Assembly: GCA_034231615.1 (NCBI GenBank)
Contig: CM067314.1
Span: forward strand, 5,458,501 to 5,522,500
From: Meghimatium bilineatum
Taxonomy: Eukaryota; Mollusca; Gastropoda; Stylommatophora; Philomycidae
Direction of reading: 5' to 3'
DNA length: 64,000 nucleotides
How positions within the stretch are numbered: position 1 is the stretch's first letter; every line of letters begins with the position of its first letter. This document shows, piece after piece, positions 23,259 through 57,559 of the stretch. The notes beneath the pieces were generated by a model. It was not told where the DNA came from. It did not search any database and saw only the letters and a list, made by a program, of their open reading frames with translations. Made by a program: the position numbers and the translations under genes.

Positions 23259-26200
23259 GTAAGTTATTTCCTTGTTCTTTGTTAAATATGTTTACACAAT
23301 TAACATGAATGAAATGGAAGTAAAAATTTATTTGAACATAAACTAGTATCAAGGACACCGGCAAACAAGGGACAGATGCTGGATATATGAGACATACCAC
23401 ATACCCCCTCCCTCCTGTTTGCCATGATATTTTATGAAATGTACACCTATAGAGACCTCTGACAGAGTAGCTGTAGTACCCAGTTTGCGTGTGAGTATAG
23501 CCCCATTAAGCCGAAGAAAGCTACTTTCAAGCTAAAGAATCCAGTTCGTTCAACCACCTAACAACTATCTGAATCCAGTGCGTTCAACCACATAACAACT
23601 ATCTGAATCCAGTTCGTTCAACCACCTAACAACTATCTGAATCCAGTTCGTTCAACCACCTAACAACTATCTGAATCCAGTTCGTTCAACCACCTAACAA
23701 CTATCTGAATCCAGTGCTTTCAACCACCTAAAAACTATCTGAATCCAGTGCGTTCTACCACCTTACAACTATCTGAATCCAGTGCGTTCAACCACCTAAC
23801 AACTATCGGTATTTCCCGCCATCCAAGGGGAGGCTCCAATTATGCAGGTGCTAACATGTTTGCCTGATTCTGGGCTCTCTCATAGAATTGTCAAGTCCTG
23901 CACAGATTCTGGGCTCTCTCATAGAATTGTCAAGTCCTGCACAGATTCTGGGCTCTCTCATAGAATTGTCAAGTCCTTCACAGATTCTGGGCTCTCTCAT
24001 AGAATTGTCAAGTTCTGCACAGATTTTTTTCACCACATCCCCATATTTCACCTGTTCATAGATAAGACATCGTATGCGCGTTGGCAGCTAGGACCACGGT
24101 CAAGAATGAAGGTCATCTGATTTCCAGATGTTCTACAAACCCCCGTGTCTCATAAAGTAGCCAAAAAATGAAGATTGTCTTTTTCTTATATTATTTATTG
24201 AACTCCGTCTCGCATTTGACTCTTTCAACACCTCCACATTAGTTTTCCTGGCAGTCCATGGTATTCTCAGCATTCTTCTACAGAACCACATCTCTGCTGC
24301 CTCTAAATTCCCTTTGTTCTGTTTGTTTATTGTCCATGACTCGCATCCTTATGTTAGTATGACAATGTCATAAAAACACCGTTATATTTTCATTTATACT
24401 GACATTATGTATTATCGTTAATATACAGTAATTCATTTCTGAACATTTTCCAATATGGAATATTTTGGGGATCTGCAACAGAAAAATAAATGTAACAGGT
24501 AGGTTAATGAGTTTGCCTCTCTTTTGGAGTCCATTGTCTGTTGTTTGCTTGATTTGTATCTCTTTTGGAGATGCGTGCTCCTTTCAACCAGCGGACAACA
24601 AAGTCCAATTAGGCTATATCAGGACACACTACCATAAAATATTAGAGGTAACAAAGACCCCAAAGTTATCTTATCTAATCTTGTAACGGTGTCAGCGACA
24701 ACGAAACGTTTAAGAACCTTTGGTATAGATATGTTGGTGTTGTTGTTTTTGATATCCAACTGCTGATGAGTAATGCTGCTCTTGTCGATACAATGCCATA
24801 CTTTAAAAAGTGCAGGTCTTCTGAAATTGACTTATTGATTCGCACAATAAGTTAGTGACTGTTAAGGGTGAATGTAGAAGTTTTTTCCTGGCAGTTGGAA
24901 AGTAAGGGCAGTCAATAAGAAGGTGTTGCACTGTTTCATTGTGATGAGAACAGTGTCTATAACTACTATAAGGTATAGATATCAATATATTTTTACTTTC
25001 CTTTATTATTTCATGTCTCTAGCTATTGTCTGTTGTTTGCTTGATTTGTATCGAGACGAACATGAGGAATTCATAAATAAAGATTCATACATACAGGAAG
25101 ATTCATACATACAGGAAGATTCATACATACAGGAAGATTTATACATACAGGAAGATTCATACATACAGGAAGATTCATACATACATTCATACATACAGGA
25201 AGATTCATGCATACATTCATAAATACAGGAAGATTCATTCATACAGGAAGATTCATACATACATTCATACATACAGGAAGATTTATACATACAGGAAGAT
25301 GCATACATACAGGAAGATTCATACATACAGGAAGATTCATACATACATGAAGATTCATACATACAGGAAGATTTATACATACAGGAAGATTCATACGTAC
25401 AGGAAGATTCATACATACAGGAAGATTCAATTAATAATTTATGTCATCCCAAGCTGATGACTCTGTTAGATCTGTTCACGATGCGTACTCGAGCGAGTCA
25501 CACGCCAGGGCCTTTCTACATGATCTCAACAATGAACTGCGCCAGTGGAAACATGGCTTAGCTTTGACGGAGTGGAACTACAAGACCAACATTAGCGACC
25601 ACAACAGGGACCAGGTTGGTTGTTTTAGTTTTTATTGGGGTGGGGAAGGTTTAGTGTGAGGTGAAAGTAGGGTTTAAGAAACCGATACAAGGGTGTGTGT
25701 TGTGGCTGGGAGTGTGGGGGTTTTAATTGCTGCACACTCACGTGGAGTACTATACACTGACTACCCTGACACAACACTGACTACCACGCTTTAAACATCG
25801 GTGGATTCCTAATCCCGGAACTACGCTACGCAGACGACACAGTACTTCTTTCAAACGATATAAAGGGATTGGAACAACTAATCAAGAACACAAAGAAATA
25901 TAGCGAAGCACAAAATTTGTATTTAAACACGCAGAAAACAAAAATAATGTCACCAGATATAACAACACAACAACCAAAAATCAGAATAGACAATACCGAG
26001 ATAGAATGTGTGGATAAATTTGAATACTTAGGAGCAAACATCAACGGTACAGGAGACTGCATGGCAGAAATAAGGAAGAGATTGGCAATGGCATATTGCA
26101 AAATAACACGGCTGAAAAACATATGGAAAAACAACAAAATAGAAACGAAAGTGCTAATGTTACGAACTTTTATTTTTCCGGTTGCAACATACGGCTGTGA

Positions 26201-29200: not shown

Positions 29201-32200
29201 CATAGCGCTCTAATCCAGCGTAAACCTCTCTTCTCCATTGCTCTTCCTCCATATCTTTCCACAGATAACATTTCTAATATTCCTCATATCTTGATATTAT
29301 TTCGAATCAGGCGGATATTAGATCTTCAAGGGATCATGGTCGATATCTTCAGCACCGGCCATGCTTGTTTACAAAATGGCTCATGTTTTACTCTGGATCC
29401 AGATTTAATAAACTTGATGTCACAATCACGCGACACTGAGCTCCTAAAGAACATCTGGCTTAAATGGAGAGATAATGTAGCTCCTGTCATGAAACCTCAT
29501 TACGTCAAGTTTATTGAATCGCTCAACGCTGGGGCCCAGGAGAACGGTAACGTCTGCATCGTCTCTGTTCTGGTTAATACTATTCATTTCATATGGTTCT
29601 ACGTTTTTTTTTCTTTTACTGTGAGAACACTTGTGTGATTATTCTACTTTCAGTTTTACTTGAAAACTAACCTGCACAATAATCATAAATTCCAAAATAA
29701 CCCCAAATAATACAATCAATAAATTTAAAACAAATTTACACAATAATCATAACTTACACAATAATCATAACTTACACAATAATCATAACTTACACAATAA
29801 TCATAACTTACATAATAATCATAACTTACATAATAATCATAACTTACACAATAATAGTAGATTACACAATAATAGTAGATTACACAATAATAGTAGATTA
29901 TACAATAATAGTAGATTACACAATAATAGTAGATTACACAATAATCATAACTTACACAATAATCATAACTTACATAATAATCATAACTTACACAATAATA
30001 GTAGATTACACAATAATAGTAGATTACACAATAATAGTAGATTACACAATAATAGTAGATTACACAATAATAGTAGATTACACAATAATCATAACTTACA
30101 CAATAATCATAACTTACACAATAATCATAAATTACATAATAATAGTAGATTACACAATATCCTAATTTCAACAATAAATCCTAATTTACACATAAATCAT
30201 AACATACACAATAATCATAACTTACACAATAATCATAACTTACACAATAATCATAACTTACACAATAATCATAACATACACAATAATCATAACTTACACA
30301 ATAATCATAACTTACACAGTAATCATAACTTACCAGAAACAACTGGTTTCTTCCATAAGAAACTAATCATAATTTTTCTAATTATAACTAATCATAATAA
30401 ATGGTGTACCGACCAACTGAATTATCCAGCGTACCGACCAGTTGGATTATCCAACGTACCGACCATCCCGTCTTTTCTTACTTTAGTGGCATGTAACTAT
30501 GTGAAAGTAAATTAATAACTGTGTCGTGACGAAACTAAACATATATATGAGAGTTTATTTTTGTTCTATTGCAAATGTTAGAAGTCAATATTTTATTAAT
30601 ATTAATATTTGCAAAATTTCATCAAAACTGAGATTTCATCTGATGCTAAAATACTCGGACGAGAACGTCAAAATTCTGCCTCAGTCTAGCTGGTTAACGA
30701 ATGTGCATTAATTTTCGTTACTATTTTAGCACGGGCTCGCACGGGCGATCTGTTCCACATATGTAACAGTATATTCTTTTGAAGGAAGTGTTACAGTATA
30801 CTACTTTTGAAGGATGTGTTACAGTATACTACTTTTGAAGGAAGTGTTACAGTATACTACTTTTGAAGGATGTGTTACAGTATACTACTTTTGAAGGATG
30901 TGTTACAGTATACTACTTTTGAAGGATGTGTTACAGTATACTACTTTTGAAGGATGTGTTACAGTATACTACTTTTGAAGGATGTGTTACAGTATACTAC
31001 TTTTGAAGGAAGTGTTACAGTATACTACTTTTGAAGGAAGTGTTACAGTATACTACTTTTGAAGGATGTGTTACAGTATACTACTTTTGAAGGAAGTGTT
31101 ACAGTATACTACTTTTGAAGGAAGTGTTACAGTATACTACTTTTGAAGGATGTGTTACAGTATACTACTTTTGAAGGAAGTGTTACAGTATACTACTTTT
31201 GAAGGATGTGTTACAGTATACTACTTTTGAAGGAAGTGTTACAGTATACTACTTTTGAAGGATGTGTTACAGTATACTACTTTTGAAGGAAGTGTTACAG
31301 TATACTACTTTTGAAGGATGTGTTACAGTATACTACTTTTGAAGGAAGTGTTACAGTATACTACTTTTGAAGGAAGTGTTACAGTATACTACTTTTGAAG
31401 GATGTGTTACAGTATACTACTTTTGAAGGAAGTGTTACAGTATACTACTTTTGAAGGATGTGTTACAGTATACTACTTTTGAAGGAAGTGTTACAGTATA
31501 CTACTTTTGAAGGATGTGTTACAGTATACTACTTTTGAAGGAAGTGTTACAGTATACTACTTTTGAAGGATGTGTTACAGTATACTACTTTTGAAGGAAG
31601 TGTTACAGTATACTACTTTTGAAGGAAGTGTTACAGTATACTACTTTTGAAGGATGTGTTACAGTATACTACTTTTGAAGGATGTGTTACAGTATACTAC
31701 TTTTGAAGGATGTGTTACAGTATACTACTTTTGAAGGAAGTGTTACAGTATACTACTTTTGAAGGATGTGTTACAGTATACTACTTTTGAAGGAAGTGTT
31801 ACAGTATACTACTTTTGAAGGATGTGTTACAGTATACTACTTTTGAAGGAAGTGTTACAGTATACTACTTTTGAAGGATGTGTTACAGTATACTACTTTT
31901 GAAGGAAGTGTTACAGTATACTACTTTTGAAGGATGTGTTACAGTATACTACTTTTGAAGGATGTGTTACAGTATACTACTTTTGAAGGATGTGTTACAG
32001 TATACTACTTTTGAAGGAAGTGTTACAGTATACTACTTTTGAAGGATGTGTTACAGTATACTTCTTTTGAAGGATGTGTTACAGTATACTACTTTTGAAG
32101 GAAGTGTTACAGTATACTACTTTTGAAGGAAGTGTTACAGTATACTACTTTTGAAGGATGTGTTACAGTATACTACTTTTGAAGGAAGTGTTACAGTATA

Positions 32201-35200
32201 CTACTTTTGAAGGAAGTGTTACAGTATACTACTTTTGAAGGATGTGTTACAGTATACTACTTTTGAAGGAAGTGTTACAGTATACTACTTTTGAAGGATG
32301 TGTTACAGTATACTACTTTTGAAGGATGTGTTACAGTATACTACTTTTGAAGGATGTGTTACAGTATACTACTTTTGAAGGATGTGTTACAGTATACTAC
32401 TTTTGAAGGATGTGTTACAGTATACTACTTTTGAAGGATGTGTTACAGTATACTACTTTTGAAGGAAGTGTTACAGTATACTACTTTTGAAGGATGTGTT
32501 ACAGTATACTACTTTTGAAGGATGTGTTACAGTATACTACTTTTGAAGGATGTGTTACAGTATACTACTTTTGAAGGAAGTGTTACAGTATACTACTTTT
32601 GAAGGAAGTGTTACAGTATACTACTTTTGAAGGAAGTGTTACAGTATACTACTTTTGAAGGATGTGTTACAGTATACTACTTTTGAAGGATGTGTTACAG
32701 TATACTACTTTTGAAGGATGTGTTACAGTATACTACTTTTGAAGGATGTGTTACAGTATACTACTTTTGAAGGAAGTGTTACAGTATACTACTTTTGAAG
32801 GAAGTGTTACAGTATACTACTTTTGAAGGATGTGTTACAGTATACTACTTTTGAAGGAAGTGTTACAGTATACTACTTTTGAAGGAAGTGTTACAGTATA
32901 TTCTTTTGAAGGAAGTGTTACAGTATATTCTTTTGAAGGAAGTGTTACAGTATATTCTTTTGAAGGAAGTGTTACAGTATATTCTTTTGAAGGAAGTGTT
33001 ACAGTATATTCTTTTGAAGGAAGTGTTACAGTATATTCTTTTGAAGGAAGTGTTACAGTATATTCTTTTGAAGGAAGTGTTACAGTATATTCTTTTGAAG
33101 GATGTGTTACAGTATACTACTTTTGAAGGAAGTGTTACAGTATACTACTTTTGAAGGAAGTGTTACAGTATACTACTTTTGAAGGAAGTGTTACAGTATA
33201 CTACTTTTGAAGGATGTGTTACAGTATACTACTTTTGAAGGATGTGTTACAGTATACTACTTTTGAAGGATGTGTTACAGTATACTACTTTTGAAGGAAG
33301 TGTTACAGTATACTACTTTTGAAGGAAGTGTTACAGTATACTACTTTTGAAGGATGTGTTACAGTATACTACTTTTGAAGGATGTGTTACAGTATACTAC
33401 TTTTGAAGGATGTGTTACAGTATACTACTTTTGAAGGAAGTGTTACAGTATACTACTTTTGAAGGATGTGTTACAGTATACTACTTTTGAAGGATGTGTT
33501 ACAGTATACTACTTTTGCGTTCCGAACCCTGGGTTCTATGTTTGATCAACAATGACTGCTAACGTAGATCTCTTCTTGGTTTTAATAAGTGCTTATCAAT
33601 GAACACAGAGGCACTTCTTATTACAGAATAAAAATGTCGTTTAATATAAACATCAAGCCAATGGTACAAATCAATATTAAATTCCGGAGTATTTAATATC
33701 TCCGTGACGTATAATACATCACCAATACAAAATGCCACGATTTCACAAACTACTCTAGCACATCCATGAATTTGGCGCACGTTATAATATAAGCTTAATG
33801 AGATTATAGACTATCTCATTATTCTACTATTAATCTCACTTTTGCTCGACTATCTTTATTCCTATTTCAAGTCGGACCGACCTTCTACCAAGACTGCAGC
33901 TCTCTGCCTGTCTGTTGCCAAACTAAAACTAGGACTTGTCTCTCCGGGGAGACAAGTACTCTGTCGACTGTCTCCGGGGACTCTGTGTGACACTCTTCCT
34001 CAGGAGTGAAAATGCGACCGCCCTGCTCGGCAGTCGATAATCCAATCCTTCTTCCTCCTCCACTCCTAAGTTTCTCGAAACTTCCAGAAACTTCCAACCA
34101 ATCAAAAGCTTTCATTTCCCCAGAGGAAAAGCTCTGGCCAATCAGAAATTGATCCTTCTGGTTACAATAAACCCACGTTGCCTCAGACCAACCAGGAAGC
34201 TTCTACCTGGTATGATTCCCGTCTGTCTATTATCTTACATGTTCTTAGGTAAACAAACGTTGCACTTGATCATAGCTTGACACGTTCCTATAAAAACACA
34301 CGTTTGTGTTTTATCGTCGCTTGACACGTTCTTAGATAAACACACCTTTGCATGGTGTGCAACTAGCATCCATAGTGACAACATTTACACAAGAGCAAAA
34401 CATTCAATGTGTTGCATTTCCCCAGTCCATCTCTTGCTATCTGTGAAGGGTTCTCACTTCTTACTGTGAAACCCCCTGCCTGTGAAGGGTTCTGCAACCA
34501 GATAATATCACACATAGACATCAAACTGAAAAACTGCTAAATTATATTGACAATCCAACATTTTAAGTTCTCACAAGATCCAATAGTTACAGACAATAAT
34601 TTCATACTTTTAAAACCGCAACCATGCCTCATTTATGAAGCAGATGGAAAGTATAGTTGTTTATGACATTTGCTTAATGTTAGATTATCTAATAAGTATA
34701 CACAGAACTAGTTAATAAATAAATGTTCTAATATCTACTTTACTTAAGCAGCGCTCCTGATACGGCCCGTTAATTCGTTGCTAGTGGCAATGAAAGCTCT
34801 TGTGACTCATATAGAAACTATTTGCTATGGAAAAATACGTCTGTTGTTTATATAATATATTTTGTATTTGTACGTTTTTGTATCCCATTTAAGCATGTTG
34901 ACTCGGTGAGTCCTTCTATTTCAATAGCTAAACACCACTGATATACATGTGTGTTTTATGTCTGTTTCAATAGCTACACACCATTGATATACATGTATAT
35001 TTTATGTTTGTTTCAATAGCTACACACCATTGATATACATGTATATTTTATGTTTGTTTCAATAGCTACACACCATTGATATGCATGTATATTTTATGTT
35101 TGTTTCAATAGCTACACACCATTGATATACATGTATATTTTATGTTTGTTTCAATAGCTACACACCATTGATATACATGTATATTTTATGTTTGTTTCAA

Positions 35201-36441
35201 TAGCTACACACCATTGATATACATGTATATTTTATGTTTGTTTCAATAGCTACACACCATTGATATGCATGTATATTTTATGTTTGTTTCAATAGCTACA
35301 CACCATTGATATACATGTATATTTTATGTTTGTTTCAATAGCTACACACCATTGATATACATGTATATTTTATGTTTGTTTCAATAGCTACACACCATTG
35401 ATATACATGTATATTTTATGTTTGTTTCAATAGCTACACACCATTGATATACATGCATGTTTTATGTCTGTTTCAATAGCTACACACCATTGATATACAT
35501 GTATATTTTATGTTTGTTTCAATAGCTACACACCACTAATATACATGCATGTTTTATGTCTGTTTCAATAGCTACACAACACTGATATACATGTATATTT
35601 TATGTTTGTTTCAATAGCTACACACCATTGATATACATGTATATTTTATGTTTGTTTCTATAGCTACACACCATTGATATACATGTATATTTTATGTTTG
35701 TTTCAATAGTTAAACACCACTGATATACATGTGTGTTTTATGTCTGTTTATTGCAGGGTTTTCTGATTACAGTCAATTCTGGAAGAAAGACTTATTTCCA
35801 GACACTCCAGAACTTGATGAGATGGTGCAGAATCTGTGGATAAAAGTCCGACCACTCTACTTACAGCTGCATGCCTACGTTCGAAGGAAACTTCGAGAGA
35901 AATACGGCCTATCTGTTGTTGGGTCTGATGGAACAATACCTGCACATCTTTTGGGTATGTTTAACGCGATAATGATTGATTAGATGTTAGAGAACTGTGT
36001 CTCATTGTGCACTTATCTCTTCATGTTAACAAGGTAAGTCGCACTCTCCAGTCCACCTTGGTTTATATTATATTCCTGGATTGAAAATGCAATTAAGTAA
36101 CTTAACGGAGCTAAGGCGAATATGATCAAAGTCGGTATGGTCAGTCTATGTTCTGTGCTGGGCGGTATTGTGCATCGATTGGTTAATTCTAATTGGAGAA
36201 ATCTCTTCTTTATTAACATTTAACCTTTTTTTTTATTGTTTTTGTAATCGGACAGGAAAGCAAGTTCTTTCATGTTGTATAAATTGTTATTGTTTAGGTA
36301 GTCGTCTTGAAGATCGATTCTGGGAAGTTGGAATTTAGAACAGTCAAGCGTGACCAATATAAAATATAAGACATGCGGGTTCATTGGGGAAATAGCCTTT
36401 TAAAATTACTCATTTGACTTTTAACGTTATTTTCATTGACG

Positions 36442-36490
<49 letters not shown>

Positions 36491-38744
36491 ATAGATAGAC
36501 AGACAGACAAACAGACAGATAGGTAGATAGATGGATGGATGAATGGGTGGAGGAAGAGGTGGGTGGGTGTGTGGGTGTGTAGGCAGGTATGTAGGTAGAT
36601 GCATGGATGGATAGATAGATAAACAGATTAGATAGATAGATTAAATAGATAGATAGATGGATGGATGGATAGTTGGGTGGGTGGGTTTGAGTGGGTAGGT
36701 AGGTAGGTAGATGGATGGATGGGTGGGTTTGGATGGGTAGGTAGGTGGGTAGGTAGGTAGATGGATGGATGGATGGATGGATGGATATATGGATGGATGG
36801 ATGGATAGATAAATAGATAGTTAGATATACAGACAGATAGATAATAGATAGAAATATACAATGTACATCACATGCTAGAACTTGTAGAGCGCACATTGCT
36901 CGTGTAAAAACCGCACTAGAGCTTGTAGAACGCACATTGCTCGTGTAAAAACCGCACTAGAGATTGTAGAACGCACATTGCTCGTGTAAAAACCGCACTA
37001 GAGCTTGTAGAACGCACATTTCTTGTGTAAAAACCGCACTAGAGCTTGTAGAGCGCACATTGCTCGTGTAAAAACCGCACTAGAGCTTGTAGAACGCACA
37101 TTGCTCGTGTAAAAACCGCACTAGAGCTTGTAGAACGCACATTGCTCGTGTAAAAACCGCACTAGAGCTTGTAGAACGCACATTTCTTGTGTAAAAACCG
37201 CACTGCAATAAATGAACGTAACAGTATCTGAGTTTTAAGTGAATATTTTCTCAGGTAATATGTGGGTACAGAATTGGTCAAATATTGAATGTTTTCTCAA
37301 GTAATATGTGGGTACAGAATTGGTCAAATATTGAATATTTTCTCAGGTAATATGTGGGCACAGCATTGGTCAAATATCATTGACATCATCAGTCCTTATC
37401 CTGAAGTAAACACAGAAGCCAAGATTGAAGCTAGACTCAAGGCCCATTTCACCGCTGCTGGAATGTTCGAGATGGCTGAACAATTCTATACCTCTGTTGG
37501 ACTCTATCAAATGACACCCGCTTTCTGGAAGAATTCCATGCTGACCAAGCCGCACGGACGCAATGTAGTGTGCCACCCTTCGGCGTTTGATATGTTCTAC
37601 CCTGGAGACTACAGGTAACATTGTTTTATCCAGCAGATTACATGTAGTATAATTTTATCCTGCAGACTACATGTAGTATAATTTTATCCTGCAGACTACA
37701 TGTAGTATAATTTTATCCTGCAGACTACATGTAGTATAATTTTATCCCGCAGATTACATGTAATATAATTTTATCCCGCAGACTACATGTAGTATAATTT
37801 TATCCTGCAGACTACATGTAGTGACTACATGTAATATAATTTTATCCTTCAGACTACATGTAATATAATTTTATCCTGCAAACTACATGTAGTATAATTT
37901 TATCCTGCAGACTACATGTAGTATAATTTTATCCCGCAGACTACATGTAGTATAATTTTATCCTGCAGACTACATGTAGTATAATTTTATCCCGCAGACT
38001 ACATGTAGTATAATTTTATCCTGCAGACTACATGTAACATAATTTTATCCTGCAGACTACATGTAATATATTTTATCCTTCAGACTACATGTAATATAAT
38101 TTTATCCTGCAGACTGCATTTAATATTGTTTAATCTTGGAGACTACATGTAATGTAATTTTGATCTGCATACTAAATGTTAATGACATCTGTTTCAATCA
38201 TAACTGTTGTGTAACATGTAATGACATCTGTTTCAATCAGAACTGTTGTGTAACATGTAATGACATCTGTTTCAATCAGAACTGTTGTGTAACATGTAAT
38301 GACATCTGTTTCAATCAGAACTGTTGTGTAACATGTAATGACATCTGTTTCAATCAGAACTGTTGTGTAACATGTTAATGACATCTGTTTCAATCAGAAT
38401 AAAAATGTGCTCAGACGTGAACTACCCCAACTTCAGAACCATTCACCATGAAATGGGTCACATAGAATATTATATGGCTTATGCAGACCAGCCGACATTA
38501 TTCCGAGAAGGGGCGAATGCAGCATTTCACGAGGCCCTAGGTGACACAATCGGTCTCTCCGCTACATCCAGCACACATTTGAAAACTTTGAAATTACTGC
38601 ACGATGAGAAAAACATCAGGTCGGAACATCTTATGAATGTCTCAGAGGAACAGAATCAGCAAATCGAACATCACAGTAAGTTATCGATATACTTGTGTGT
38701 ACACGTCATCGATATAATTGTGTGTACACGATCGTCGGTGTACG

Positions 38745-38781
<37 letters not shown>

Positions 38782-41700
38782 ATTGATATACTTGTGTGTG
38801 CACAAGCGTCGATGTACAACTGTGTGGCTGAGTTTCATCACCTACCTGTATGTTGGGAATATTTATTAGGAATATGTATAGGAATAAATACACAGGAATA
38901 TGTATTTTGGGAGCCGCGTAGCGAAGCAGTTAGCGCACTGGATTCGCATATGAGTGGTCCTGGGTTCATTCCCCAGTTGAGGCGGAAATGTTTTTCAGAT
39001 TGCAACGGCTCCCAGGTCGACCCAGACTTAAATGGGTACCAGATTAATCCGGGAAGTAAAAACTGCGAGTTAATGGAGATGGCTACCGTCTTCATTTGCA
39101 GAGCCTCTGAAATGTGAGATCGCTAACATCTCACACCCCTACGGCATTAATAAATGCTATGGATTACTTTACTTTACTTTACTTTACTTTACTTTACTTT
39201 ACTTTACTTTACTTTACTTTACTTTACTTTACTTTACTTTACTTTACTTTACTTATATCTTAGGAAAGTTTCATAGCAATATAATGCATATTGCAGTGAT
39301 CTTCGTCATAACAGACCTGACTGCGTAAGGTCTATTCGACTATTGTTCCGCTTTTCATTGACTGACGAAACAAAGTATAAATAAATGACCAATGCAAACC
39401 ATGGAAATAGTCAGAATTGAATGACACAGTGATGCAGCACAGAGGTCAGTATAACGAAGGTCACAGTATCACATGATACCATTTAGTATTAACATGAAGA
39501 TATAGGCGATGATAGCTGCTCTCACTTAGCTAATATCGCAACCACCAACATACCCATTGATTCTATCAGGCTCTTTGAGCATGTTGGGCAAGATAAACCA
39601 GTAGGTGATAAGGTAGGAGTGCATCACTCTGCATAACAGTGTCTAAAGAATGACATGGACCTACTTTCAAGCCCATACAGGATTTAGAAGCAACGAAAGA
39701 GAGGATTCATTTTGTGTAGAGGGGCGGGGGGAGATACTTACACAGTGGATGGAACCGTGATGCGAAAAGTAAGGGCTGGAACAGTGAGAAGAAGAGAAAG
39801 GGCTGGAACAGTGAGAAAAAGAGAAAGGGCTGGAACAGTGAGAAGAAGAGAAAGGGCTGGAACAGTGAGAAGAAGAGAAAGGGCTGGAACAGTGAGAAGA
39901 AGAGAAAGGGCTGGAACAGTGAGAAGAAGAGAAAGGGCTGGAACAGTGATGAGAAGAGAAAGGGCTGGAACAGTGAGAAGAAGAGAAAGGGCTGGAACAG
40001 TGAGAAGAAGATAAAGGGCTGGAACAGTGAGAAGAAGAGAACGGGCTGGAACAGTTATGCAAAGAGATTCTTTATTCTTGATTAGAAACTAGCATCGTAT
40101 GACACGGGACATTCTGTTAAGTGCTCCGCTCTCCGTTTCAGCAGCCATTCGAGTTTATACACTCAAAATTCCCAGTCAAGTGTACATGATCTTCGGTACT
40201 TTCCAAAAAAAGAGTACGTTTTCTCCCCTCACATCTAAGCTCTTACATTTATGTCAATCTTTGTATGTGTACGTTTTCAGTCGCATTGTCAACATCTCCA
40301 TTTTTTTGCAATTAATTTATGACTGCTTTAATTATAAGAATAAGATAGAGCTTGAACACTTGTGTACACCTGCGTACATGGGAACACTTGTGTACACCTG
40401 CGTACATGGGAACACTTGTGTACACCTGCGTACATGGGAACACTTGTGTACACCTGCGTACATGGGAACACTTGTGTACACCTGGGTACATGGGAACACT
40501 TGTGTACACCTGCGTACATGGGAACACTTGTGTACACCTGCGTACATGGGAACACTTGTGTACACCTGCGTACATGGGAACACTTGTGTACACCTGCGTA
40601 CATGGGAACACTTGTGTACACCTGCGTACATGGGAACACTTGTGTACACCTGCGTACATGGGAACACTTGTGTACACCTGCGTACATGCATGTGTACTCT
40701 GTCAATAGAGGTGAAGTATACGTGTAACATGTACATTTCAATAGAAGTGAGGGAGATAGTTAAGAGATGAGCTCTGCAGGAGCTACGTAACACCAATAAT
40801 CACATATGGATGCGAATCATAGACAGTACATAGACATAACTGTAGAAAATGTGAGAGGCTGTGATGAGGTTATATAAAAGAATGCTGAGAGGAACATGGG
40901 AATCTAGAAAATATAATGAGGATGTGCTGAACGAGGCAAATGTGAGACTCGGGGTTACTTAATAATAAAATGAAAATACAATCTGTCTTATATGATTTTT
41001 TTTGGACACATTATGAGGAAGGGAGGTTTGGAGAGCATAGTTACAGCTGGCACGATTAATGGCAAGGAAGATCGAGGACGACAACGTGAGAAAATATTAG
41101 ATAGTCTGACATCGTGGAATAGCACAGCGTCAACAACAATCCTAATAATAAAATATTGGAAATGAAGAGTTGTGAAGATCCATGATCGCCCATGTCAGTC
41201 GGTACGGCACCTGATGATAGTTTAGCCTATACTTCTGTAACCCAATGAAACTTGTACATTTAATGTTATTTATGAGTAAACCAATTTCTGATTGAATCAG
41301 AAGCGACCATTAACAGCCTGTTACATATGGCATTGGAGAAGGTGGCTTTCCTTCCGTTTGGTTTGTTAGTGGACACTTGGCGGTGGGGTGTCATGCAAGG
41401 AACAATAACTCCAGACATGTATAACAGGAAGTGGTGGGATATGACGTAAGTCGGGATCTAAATTCATCACACCTATATTTAATTAATATTTAATTATTAT
41501 TTAATCAATATTTAATTAATATTTAATCATTATTTAATCTTTATTTAATTAATATTTAATCATCATTTAATCAGTATTTAATTAATATTTAATCATCATT
41601 TAATCAATATTTAATTAATATTTAATCATTATTTAATCATTATTTAATCAATATTTAATTAATATTTAATCATTATTTAATCAATATGTGATTAATATTT

Positions 41701-43235: not shown

Positions 43236-46200
43236 GCACGAAGCAAAACGAAGCATTACCCGACAAGACTTTGAACATCTATAGCTAATCGATTTTCATG
43301 AAATAAAAACGTAAAGTCTGTAATAATAACGCCTGTTTGCCTTCTTTGCAAACCCACAGGACTATGAGTAAATTAATTTCATAAAGACTTCAAGCCGAAG
43401 TGGCAAATTCAGTTGTGCGATGAAAGAAACTACTCAAATCTAGAACTCAGATTTAGCTAATCGTTTCAAGAAACCTCGGATATTACTGTCAGCAGAATCG
43501 ATTACGATATAGAATATACAATTATCGTTAATTGTTGTTTTATTTAAATATAATCGGTGATTTCCAAAAGCTTTTATCGTCAGAAGCAATATTGCCTTTA
43601 AAAATTGAGCAATTACAAACATCGATTCACAATGGCTAAACTCGTGACAATCACTTCACACGTTGTTAGTTGAACATTAAGGGGAACATAATAGTGTTGT
43701 TTAAATAGTTACATTAATGAACTTGTTGAAACTATCAAACAGCTGCTCGGTTTCTTTCCGTAAAGCTAGCTACCTATTGTCATTTCCCCTTGTGGAGTTC
43801 AGCGTTATGGAGGGGGGGGGGAAGCGCCAATGAAGGGGGGGGGGGAGAGAAGAGAGAGAGAGAAAGTTGACACTAGTTTGTATATCGTTAGTTTAATTTA
43901 CTTTCCTAAGCACAAGAGTCGCAATTTTGATTGCGTTCATTACGGCACTCAGTGTCCACATTACATATCCACATTTCAACTTTTTAATTTTTTGTGTAAT
44001 TTTCTACATCTTCTGTGACTCGGAGGTTGAAAAGAAGACTTTCTGCTGCCATGAATCCATCTGCTCGCAACGCACTGACCCCCTCCTGGGTCATCCAGCC
44101 GGAAAGGGGGCTCTCAGTGCATTGCGCGCAGAACGATGAATGCGAGGTTTATGCACCTTTAACAAAATTTCGTTTTGTTAAATAATATATGTTTTGTTCC
44201 GTGTTAAAATGTGGCCAATCGTAATGAATCCAATTTTTGTATTCCAGATTAGAGCTTCAAGGGATTCGAGCGCCGGTTCCAAGATCTGAAAACGACTTTG
44301 ATCCTGGCTCAAAGTATCACATCGCAGGAAATAGTGCTTATATTTGGTAGGTCAAAACGTTACTAAACAAACTGTCAATAATTTTTGTGTTAAGTAGTGT
44401 GTCATCGCGTATTTTAGTGTATAGTATTATAGCATCATATATTTTAGTGCCAAGTAGTTCAGCATCGAGTATTTTAGTGTCAAGTTGTGTAGAAGCAATT
44501 ATTTTAGTGTCAAGTTGTGTAGAAGCAATTATTTTAGTGTCAAGTTGTGTAGAAGCAATTATTTTAGCTTCATTTGTTATTTTCTGTATTTTTTTCACTT
44601 TTAATCTCCTAGTTAATTCATCAGTTACACCCAACATATCCAAGTTAACGTTCTGTCTTCTCTTTTACTTCATCAGTTACACCTCAACAGTTTCATGTTT
44701 AACGTAGTCTCCACATTTACTTTATCAGTTATAGTTAGTTACAGCCAACAGTTACATGTTAACGTTCTGTCTTCTCTTTTACTTCATCAGTTACACCTCA
44801 ACAGTTTCATGTTTAACGTAGTCTCCACATTTACTTTATCAGTTATAGTCAGTTACAGCCAACAGTTACATGTTAACGTTCTTTCTCCTCAGTTACTTCA
44901 TTAGTTACAGCCAACAGTTACATGTTAACGTTCTTTCTCCTCAGTTACTTCCTCAGTTACAGCCAACAGTTACATATTAACGTTCTTTCTCCTCAGTTAC
45001 TTCATCAGTTACATTCAACAGTTTCAAATGTATAAAAGTTTATGTCAGGCTAGTATGTTTGATGGATCCTTACATGAATGCGATTTCTACGGATCAAAAA
45101 CAGCAGGTAGAAAACTGAGGTAAGTAAGTGTGTCTTGATGAGTGAAGACGAACGTTCACGTGATTGTCGTATATCAAACTCTTTCAGGAAATGTGAAACT
45201 CGATGTGAATTAATAATAGTAGTAGAGTGTTGAAGTGAAAGCGTGCTGGGTCCATTACCGAGAGGTCCGTGGATCGAGACCACGCTCTGCTAACATTATT
45301 TCGGGATCTCTCTGGCGTAGTGATTAAGCCGTTTGTTTCGTGCTCAAGAGGTCGAAGTTCGGATCGTCTTGTTTTTAAAGTAGACTTTTTTTTCGAGATA
45401 ACTGGGGATTATCGCTTGAAGATATGGTGTACGTGCTGTGAGCGGTACTTTCGGCAGGTGGCGTTATTTTTCAAATATAGGGACTGAATAAATATGGGGT
45501 AACTCGAATACAATGAAGTCAATCTTCTGCGCCCCGTGATCACTTTGAGAGTGCGTTACTTTATAGATAATCTGAATAATGATAAACAGAGATATCTGTC
45601 AGAAGACTGAAGACTTTACATAGGAATTCAAATATTTGATGAATAATCTCGTAGAGATATTGTCTCAGAGTCTCTCCATTCCTCCAGCACGGAACATGGT
45701 GCATAGAGCATAATCCAGAGCTCTGCAGTTCTAGCGATGTGGTGCTATTGTGTGTATTATTGTATGTTGCTGAGATTTATAGTCATACCCTCGTTCATGG
45801 TTCTTCTACGAAGATTTTTTTTCTTGATCTTGATCTTTTTCTTTTGTCATTTGGTACCAATTTTGATACTTGTAGTGGAAGTGTGTTTTCACTCATTCAA
45901 AGTACATGTCCGATATAAGTCCTGAGTATGTTTATGTTTACGTGGGGAAATAGAGGGAATATACATGTGGTTCTACAGAAGAATGCTGAGAATACCATGG
46001 ACTGCCAGAAAAACCAATGTGGAGGTGTTGAAAAAGTCAAATGTGAAACGGACCTTAATCAATAATATAAGGAAAAGACAATCTTCATTTTTTGGCCACT
46101 TCATGAGACAGAGAGGTTTGGAGAATATAGCCACAACAGGCAAGATTGAAGACAACAGAGACAGAGGGTGACAACGTGAGGAAAAAAAATAGACAGTTTG

Positions 46201-55757: not shown

Positions 55758-56960
55758 TCATTGCGTGCATCTTGAACAACAACAGCAAGACGAGTAGGTA
55801 CATTGTCGAAGTGGTCTTATAACATCGTAATATCTGGAAGTATGAAATCCTGAGCATCCTCTGTCAAAAGAGAGTGATGGTTGTGAACACGCAGTGTAAG
55901 AGAAAGGTGCAATCGCAGATTCCCGGCGACCTATTCCCTCGTCTTGGTAGCGACGACAACAGCTGTCTGTAGCTTGATCACATGTTTCTACCTTCTCGCC
56001 CATATCAGTAGTAGAAGACTGGTTGGTAGTGTTGGTTTGATTTTCTGTAGAAGCATCTAACATCTCTGTTTTGACTAGTACCCCTGTGTCTTGCATCCCT
56101 GGCTGTTGTGATGGTTCTGACGTGAAAAATCGTGCAATTTGTGACGGCGTCCGTGACGGCATATCATTGATCAGGCCTGTATTAGACTTTGGATTAAACT
56201 CAGGCGCTATACTTGAAGGATGCTTTGCAACAGAGCCTGTGTCTGACGGTGACATTGGAGCAGCTCCTGGTGACTTAGGTTTATCTACTTTAATAACCGG
56301 AGTAGAATCCCTAGGATTATCTTTGTTAGAAGAAAAAGATCTGTGTGTATTAACCGAATCCTCTGATTTCGGATCAGCGGAGATATTTTGAGATTTGGCT
56401 CCAGCCGAACTTGGCCTTGAGGCTGGAGTTTTAGCTGATATAGATTTCGGCATGGAGTCAGGATGATGCAACAATTCTTGCGGTGAAGGATTTGGTTTTC
56501 GGTCAGGGGGAAATTGAAACGATACGTGCGGTAAAGGATTTGGTAAAGGGGGAATAGAAGATTGTATCAGGTCAGACGATGAAGAAGTTTGCTGAACCGG
56601 TAAAGGTGGTTCATCTAACGGTATATTGCTGTGCGGTAGAATTTGCCTACTAGCATTTCTTAATTTGCGAGCAACCGCAGGTACTTCTGGACGTGAGACA
56701 GGAGTACAGATGTGTTTATACTTGCGTGAGACGTGCGCGCAACACGGTTTCAAATACGAACGACAAAATGATGTTGTGGACACTGCAGAAAGGGACGTTC
56801 GACGATGCGATCTATGAAAGCAAACTGGAGGTGACAATATATTATTTCTGAACACAAATGGTCTGGTGCATTTTGCCTGGCTAATAAGCTCACTTAAGAC
56901 TTGAGTTGAAGGTCTGCATGACGTTAATATCTGTACCTGTAATCTGGATGACGAAGTCAT
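55758..56960 (-). CDS. unrecognised Pro/Ser/Thr-rich protein, 400 residues
   Basis: The longest non-repetitive open frame in the window. I chose the ATG at 56960 (MTSSSRLQV); the frame stays open a little further upstream without another ATG. Residues about 15-90 contain several Cys and basic residues (SQAKCTRPFVFR; CCAHVSRKYKHICTP); about 110-340 are rich in Pro, Ser, Asp, Asn and Lys with short charged patches, typical of disordered sequence; the C-terminus is Cys-rich and ends CTYSSCCCCSRCTQ. No signal peptide, membrane helix or known domain is visible. It may be a single-exon gene or one exon of a longer one; no function is assigned. The start region is tandemly repeated upstream. Confidence 0.6.
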   Translation of the reverse strand: MTSSSRLQVQILTSCRPSTQVLSELISQAKCTRPFVFRNNILSPPVCFHRSHRRTSLSAVSTTSFCRSYLKPCCAHVSRKYKHICTPVSRPEVPAVARKLRNASRQILPHSNIPLDEPPLPVQQTSSSSDLIQSSIPPLPNPLPHVSFQFPPDRKPNPSPQELLHHPDSMPKSISAKTPASRPSSAGAKSQNISADPKSEDSVNTHRSFSSNKDNPRDSTPVIKVDKPKSPGAAPMSPSDTGSVAKHPSSIAPEFNPKSNTGLINDMPSRTPSQIARFFTSEPSQQPGMQDTGVLVKTEMLDASTENQTNTTNQSSTTDMGEKVETCDQATDSCCRRYQDEGIGRRESAIAPFSYTACSQPSLSFDRGCSGFHTSRYYDVIRPLRQCTYSSCCCCSRCTQ

Positions 56961-57070
56961 GTGATTTACTATCAATAATATCGATAGATCTGAATCATGT
57001 GATTTACTATCAATAATATCGATAGATCTGAATCATGTGATTTACTATCAAAAATATCGGTCGATCTGAA
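56956..57070. repeat. 38-base tandem repeat at the start of the minus-strand gene, 3 copies
   Basis: Units contain CATGTGATTTACTATCAATA and ATCGATAGATCTGAAT; the first unit overlaps the chosen start codon (CAT on the plus strand). The third unit is diverged. Bases 57070-57555 hold no recognised feature. Confidence 0.95.
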
Positions 57071-57559
57071 TCAAGACAGTATTGATAGTCAATGTTAGTG
57101 AGTAGACAATTATATTTCTGTAAGAATCTGCAAGAACATCGCATAGATAGGCGATATCTTTCACAAATATCTACTCACATTTAAGTGAATCTGCAGAAAA
57201 CGTCAACTAATTAAATGACTGGAGTTTAGAAACATTACAATATTGACTGAAAACATTGTCCTACAGGATAAACAGGTTGGTATCTTAGCATCTTAATAAT
57301 GCATTGTTTGGGGGAAACAACGATACATTCTCAACGGAAAACAATACGAAACGTTGTTGAATATTCTCCAACCATCAATGCGAAGTCAAATGTTAGGCGC
57401 CAGTGTCAAGTGTGAATCCTCGAGTTTCATAGTATTTCAGATGTGCCACGTAAATAAATCTGGTTGAATTGTTAACTTGCTCTGACCTTTGGCAGTCATA
57501 CGGTAGTAGGTCTACCGCCACAGCACAGATGGCTGAATAGTGCGCTCATTTTACGACAT

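Follow-up and report, generated by a model that had tools for sequence, protein, structure and literature searches.

The window analysed herein is a 64-kb stretch of DNA on contig C17 of a genome assembled into 1.61 Gb in 32 contigs, and it holds an ACE (peptidase M2) gene whose eight exons join into a single open frame with a stop codon at its end. The most N-terminal ACE exons were not found in the 64-kb window, and the Pfam family PF01401 was matched in all three exons tested (E-values from 2.7e-18 to 3.7e-30). The intron in focus (37615..38397, forward strand, 783 bases) separates an upstream exon at 37347..37614 (+; open frame, PF01401 E 3.7e-30), which ends in ...GDY plus the AG of an R codon, from a 278-base exon at 38398..38675 (+; open frame, PF01401), which encodes HEMGH (38447-38461). 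Its true acceptor AG at 38396..38397 (+) is supported by the open frame and by the same split R codon standing before the HEMGH exons of both paralogues of the gene. Two tandem arrays, one at the donor and one at the acceptor, make up the whole intron and together take in 783 of its 783 bases. Collapsing these to one 29-bp and one 39-bp unit leaves about 68 bases, which is close to the minimum for animal introns.

At the acceptor side, Tandem Repeats Finder delimited a 39-bp array of 5.6 copies with 98% matches (38180..38399, +), which carries the true acceptor in its last unit and extends two bases into the HEMGH exon, a thin overlap of the exon–intron boundary. The splice signal AG is kept in identical context in four of the five upstream copies, giving decoy acceptors at 38239..38240, 38278..38279, 38317..38318 and 38356..38357 (all +), and in the sixth, most 5′ copy AT replaces the AG (38200..38201, +) and TTAAT is retained. 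The 20 bases before the AG are the same at all five acceptors, and AA follows each. The four units that end at a decoy AG share the same 39 bases, and the last unit counts 40 bases, with an extra T; homogenised internal units with a divergent last unit and most 5′ copy are a trait of the so-called mirages discussed below. A 30-base piece of the unit, searched across the 1.61-Gb genome with up to three mismatches by a method that may skip very common words, gave five matches, all in the array at 38180-38399 and none reversed. An initial annotation of this DNA had placed the true acceptor in the last unit of a 39-base array, which the repeat analysis and the open frame over eight exons bear out, and had described the decoys as matching it over 20 bases before the AG and the first two exonic bases, which direct comparison confirms; its five exon starts (38241, 38280, 38319, 38358 and 38398) agree with the AG positions. 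Use of any of the four decoys would yield GDYRTVV-stop upstream of HEMGH, and the translated frames thereby reproduce the R-T-V-V-stop ahead of the zinc motif that was foreseen for each. Since the decoy stops precede later exon junctions, nonsense-mediated decay would be expected here and not a truncated protein. Exons defined by the decoys would measure 318–435 bases, against 278 for the true acceptor.

The rest of the intron, which the initial annotation had left unmentioned and so covered only in part, is occupied by a 29-bp array of 19.6 copies (37601..38179, +) that overlaps the donor and begins with the last 14 bases of the upstream ACE exon. CAG sites resembling acceptors and GTA sites resembling donors occur in its units, most of which have an acceptor-like site such as TTTTATCCTGCAG. 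Acceptor strength was scored for 32 AGs (37640-38397) with an approximate splice-site matrix, so that ranks are approximate too: the true acceptor ranked 20th of 32, behind the four decoys and 15 AGs from the 29-bp array, and each of the 31 other AGs led to a premature stop. The four decoys outscored the true acceptor slightly with this approximate matrix, which, together with their identical context, upholds the earlier estimate that they are about as strong by local sequence.

What could set the last acceptor apart is its predicted branch point. TTAAT at 38375..38379 (+), a sequence match to yUnAy with its A 19 nt before the intron end, gives the true unit a match 15–45 nt before the AG, and the four decoys have none (GTAAT instead); TTAAT is also present in the AG-less most 5′ copy, and no upstream copy combines it with an AG. 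The pairing of TTAAT with an AG in the true unit is a suggestive, predicted cue for the choice of the last AG. It comes close to the finding that the initial annotation had named as speaking against its proposal, a branch point just upstream of 38398, but is predicted rather than mapped. All five units, decoys included, also contain UAAC 26–27 nt before the AG, and given this candidate in every unit the decoy acceptors may be competent. Passages of PMC1431707 describe the first AG downstream of the branch point as the one normally used; by this rule acceptor choice among the five should follow branch-point choice, and a decoy would be favoured if the branch point of a decoy unit were chosen. 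The same passages hold that products of upstream AGs are possibly degraded so well that steady-state RNA misses them (PMC1431707), and the lancelet RT-PCR data are accordingly less conclusive. RNA accessibility gives no clear reason for last-acceptor choice, as local folding does not single that acceptor out: accessibility is slightly higher in its last 10 bases (0.020 vs. 0.0006–0.007) but not in the bases upstream of these.

Arrays at splice junctions recur along the gene. With units of at least 10 bp, 62 arrays remained after merging, covering 30% of the 64-kb window. Arrays enclose four of the 15 junctions of the eight ACE exons (8 acceptors, 7 donors), namely the donor following 37614 and the acceptors that precede 37347, 38398 and 44997. 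Two more junctions have an array at most 10 bases away: the acceptor preceding 35757, and the donor that follows 38675, whose neighbouring 25-bp array has under two copies; the donor after 41445 is 30 bases from an array. A 46-bp array of three copies (37240..37377, +) spans the acceptor of the exon at 37347 and its first 31 bases, with one copy scoring equal to the true site and the AG shifted by one base in another. An array of units of about 52 bp (44605..45026, +) likewise takes in the acceptor preceding 44997 and runs 30 bases into that exon, and two of the array copies score equal to the true site with the approximate matrix. The 18 copies of another 46-bp array (34919..35749, +) carry TAG acceptor-like sites and end 7 bases before the exon start at 35757; here the array units end in TAG and the true site is CAG, which was the strongest of 40 AGs scored from 34500 with the same approximate matrix. 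The intron before this exon also contains a 28-bp array of about 99 copies (30762-33517). Elsewhere in the window, a 424-codon open frame on the reverse strand (55758-57032) had no Pfam match up to an E-value of 0.1, and on the 5′ side the units of a 38-bp array (56957-57073) run into the frame, which is possibly another exon edge within an array. The stretch at 38910-39255, tRNA-like by eye and followed by a (TTACT)n tail, is possibly a SINE, and ARAGORN found no tRNA gene in it.

Two further ACE loci were found in the genome, on contigs C4 and C1, in which arrays with units of at least 10 bp make up 17% of 40 kb and 3.7% of 70 kb, respectively. Three arrays span a donor or acceptor among the 11 exon matches examined in the C4 paralogue, two more end within about 25 bases of an exon, and one donor copy repeats TTAG|GTAAGTTG exactly; exon edges in C4 are rough, and the junction statistics given below cover the gene in the window. 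Among the 14 exon matches examined in the C1 paralogue there was no junction-spanning array, and two short arrays lie at most 150 bases from a match. The HEMGH exons of both paralogues start in the same split R codon as in the window’s gene, and no array spans or abuts their acceptors; one C4 copy of the exon has a short array about 150 bases upstream, and a broken C1 copy has one about 50 bases upstream. Judged by these comparisons, each gene appears to have its own local arrays, without conservation between the loci. For reference, the array share (units of at least 10 bp) was 4.5% of 98 kb in a small sample of 30 Cpn60/TCP1-family loci, which is exon-centred, not matched for exon content, and drawn as 30 of 51 listed places, some probably intronless. 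In one of these loci (L035, 1690-1968) a 37-bp array directly follows an exon donor with donor-like GTAAGGAT copies, a possible mirage in an unrelated gene.

The ACE intron is a splice-junction-spanning minisatellite of a kind already known from lancelets as a mirage: its units are of minisatellite size (39 bp × 5.6 and 29 bp × 19.6), the boundary is spanned and splice signals are kept. In the amphioxus examples set out in parts of PMC3087553 and PMC3902484 (Adh3, the globins BflGb6 and BflGb9, TnC and PGBD5), tandem copies span the boundary and many retain an AG or GT, as here. Acceptor and donor sides are both affected there, as in the ACE intron, and the BflGb6 mirage resembles the 39-bp array in that internal units are homogenised and the edges excluded (PMC3087553, PMC3902484). 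In contrast to the amphioxus mirages, a single ACE intron consists wholly of two arrays, one per splice site. The lancelet genome is about 0.5 Gb, whereas the host genome of the ACE array is 1.6 Gb. The Adh3 and globin data, in the sections of PMC3087553 concerned, suggest that regular splicing is undisturbed by mirages, and sections of PMC3902484 report that the Adh and TnC mirages led to no aberrant mRNAs. Among human genes, IFI6 (6-16) is similar in that a minisatellite at a splice junction gives several competing sites, but these are donors and not acceptors, and two downstream units are used, resulting in three mRNA species (Turri 1995, as summarised in PMC4526556). The sequence of the ACE array would allow alternative site use of this type. 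Minisatellite expansion at exon boundaries is shared with variable tandem repeats of human segmental duplications, where some cryptic splice sites were activated and new introns are proposed in the portion of PMC2812944 on these repeats, whereas the ACE intron position is common to the paralogues and the repeats are intronic. The Rogers model of intron gain by tandem duplication of AG/GT segments, as outlined in part of PMC3087553, similarly involves copies of splice signals in genes, but the ACE gene has no new intron, since the same split R codon opens the HEMGH exons of both paralogues. In the literature searched, ‘mirage’ in the splice-junction sense was found for lancelets only, and junction repeats for human genes as well, so that the ACE array extends mirages beyond lancelets. 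An intron made only of copies of its own splice sites moreover offers a natural experiment on spliceosomal choice between almost identical acceptors; because the five acceptors differ by one inserted base within the 30 nt upstream, branch-point choice could be separated from exon definition.

Taken as a whole, we consider it likely that the intron harbours a mirage-type, splice-junction-spanning minisatellite that is tolerated, with the exon-proximal AG used, and that is a by-product and not an evolved switch. A short intron would have been overgrown through duplication at both ends, and the acceptor duplicates would be tolerated because the spliceosome still joins the exon-proximal copy. Exon definition across the 278-base HEMGH exon would help the choice of the last acceptor, with the longer decoy-defined exons presumably disfavoured, as would the predicted branch point, the last unit being the only one in which TTAAT and an AG occur together. 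Most splicing is expected to go to the last AG. Upstream AGs would be used now and then, and the resulting transcripts, with their premature stop, would form a small unproductive share and probably be degraded, so that the arrays probably disturb splicing little. The array would then be a by-product of a minisatellite-rich region, and since similar arrays occur at other junctions of this gene and of one paralogue, nothing marks the acceptor of this intron as a chosen control point.

The initial annotation had instead proposed that array length is a dial, whereby more decoys would send more transcripts into unproductive products targeted for nonsense-mediated decay, and copy number would set ACE output and vary between individuals. 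The decoys do share the 20 bases before the AG and the two after it with the true acceptor, every upstream AG scored (31, in 37640-38397) leads to a premature stop, each 39-bp unit has its own branch-point candidate, and the identity of the four decoy units fits an array that expanded recently and is likely to vary in length. Nonetheless, we consider such a dial for ACE output unlikely and give it only a slim chance, as neither paralogue has an array of this kind at the acceptor of the homologous intron, similar arrays at other junctions make the site not special, and lancelet mirages are reported, in parts of PMC3087553 and PMC3902484, as not disturbing splicing. Similarly little credence is given to the intron as a tunable poison cassette, in which the 39-bp copy number would set the fraction of ACE transcripts spliced to a decoy and destroyed, and the internal units would have stayed weak because they lost a branch-point T that the last unit retains.

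The placement of the arrays, as opposed to their sequence, which is far beyond chance, is less clear, and could be explained by targeted seeding at splice junctions, e.g., through breakage linked to transcription or splicing. Four of the 17 intronic arrays of the gene span a junction against 0.52 expected for random units in present-length introns (p = 0.0013), and four junctions lie in arrays against 0.8 expected when arrays are kept out of exons (p = 0.004). However, the expectation is 2.26 with introns collapsed to their non-repeated length (p = 0.13; in the collapsed and present-length nulls one array was entered as a 13-bp and not a 52-bp unit, giving a lower expectation), and 4.5 junctions against the four observed when all arrays are shifted freely along the window (p = 0.64). 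The excess is hence significant under only two of the four nulls, and an array was found within 60 bases of a match edge in only one of the 30 Cpn60/TCP1-family loci; random arrays overgrowing short introns can account for the pattern, targeting is not required, and we regard it as unlikely. That the array or its copy number is an assembly artefact, absent from the animal, is highly improbable: near-identical units are where assemblers err, but the 1.6-Gb assembly comes in 32 contigs, the internal units are distinct from both the last unit and the most 5′ copy, and the window is full of similar arrays of many periods.

The paralogues differ from the window’s gene in a feature that may matter more than the array, namely alternative HEMGH exons. 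The C4 paralogue has two intact copies (G000:C4:5135186-5135310, L010, and 5136476-5136600, L011; 19186-19310 and 20476-20600 of the concatenate), and the C1 paralogue has three intact and two broken ones on the reverse strand (G000:C1, approximately 61280706-61287483, L016 and L017), the intact ones at 24518-24642, 25975-26099 and 31171-31295 of the C1 reverse concatenate. Mutually exclusive zinc-site exons in ACE were not reported among the matches listed in the literature. The intact copies are each 125 nt long with frame-fitting splice sites, and since 125 is not a multiple of three, two such exons in one transcript would break the frame; they look like putative mutually exclusive exons for the catalytic zinc site. 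Over 41 codons, and with dS near saturation, dN and dS were 0.17 and 3.2 for C4a vs. C4b, 0.17 and 1.4 for C1a vs. C1d, 0.33 and 1.2 for C1a vs. C1e, and 0.37 and 2.3 for C1d vs. C1e, and the alternative exons are apparently under purifying selection; in every pair dN is far lower than dS, which would be expected if the exons were mutually exclusive. The exons at 37347-37614 and 38398-38675 of the window’s gene are single and correspond to two each in both paralogues (with splits near human-query positions 273 and 372), reflecting either two introns lost in the window’s gene or two gained in the paralogues. Finally, the codon across the 44346/44997 junction of the window’s gene encodes Cys (YICYF) at a place where human ACE reads YIRYF, the Arg of which serves as a chloride ligand in the mammalian enzyme; this Arg seems to be retained in the C4 and C1 paralogues, and the chloride response of the window’s gene may differ with Cys in its place.
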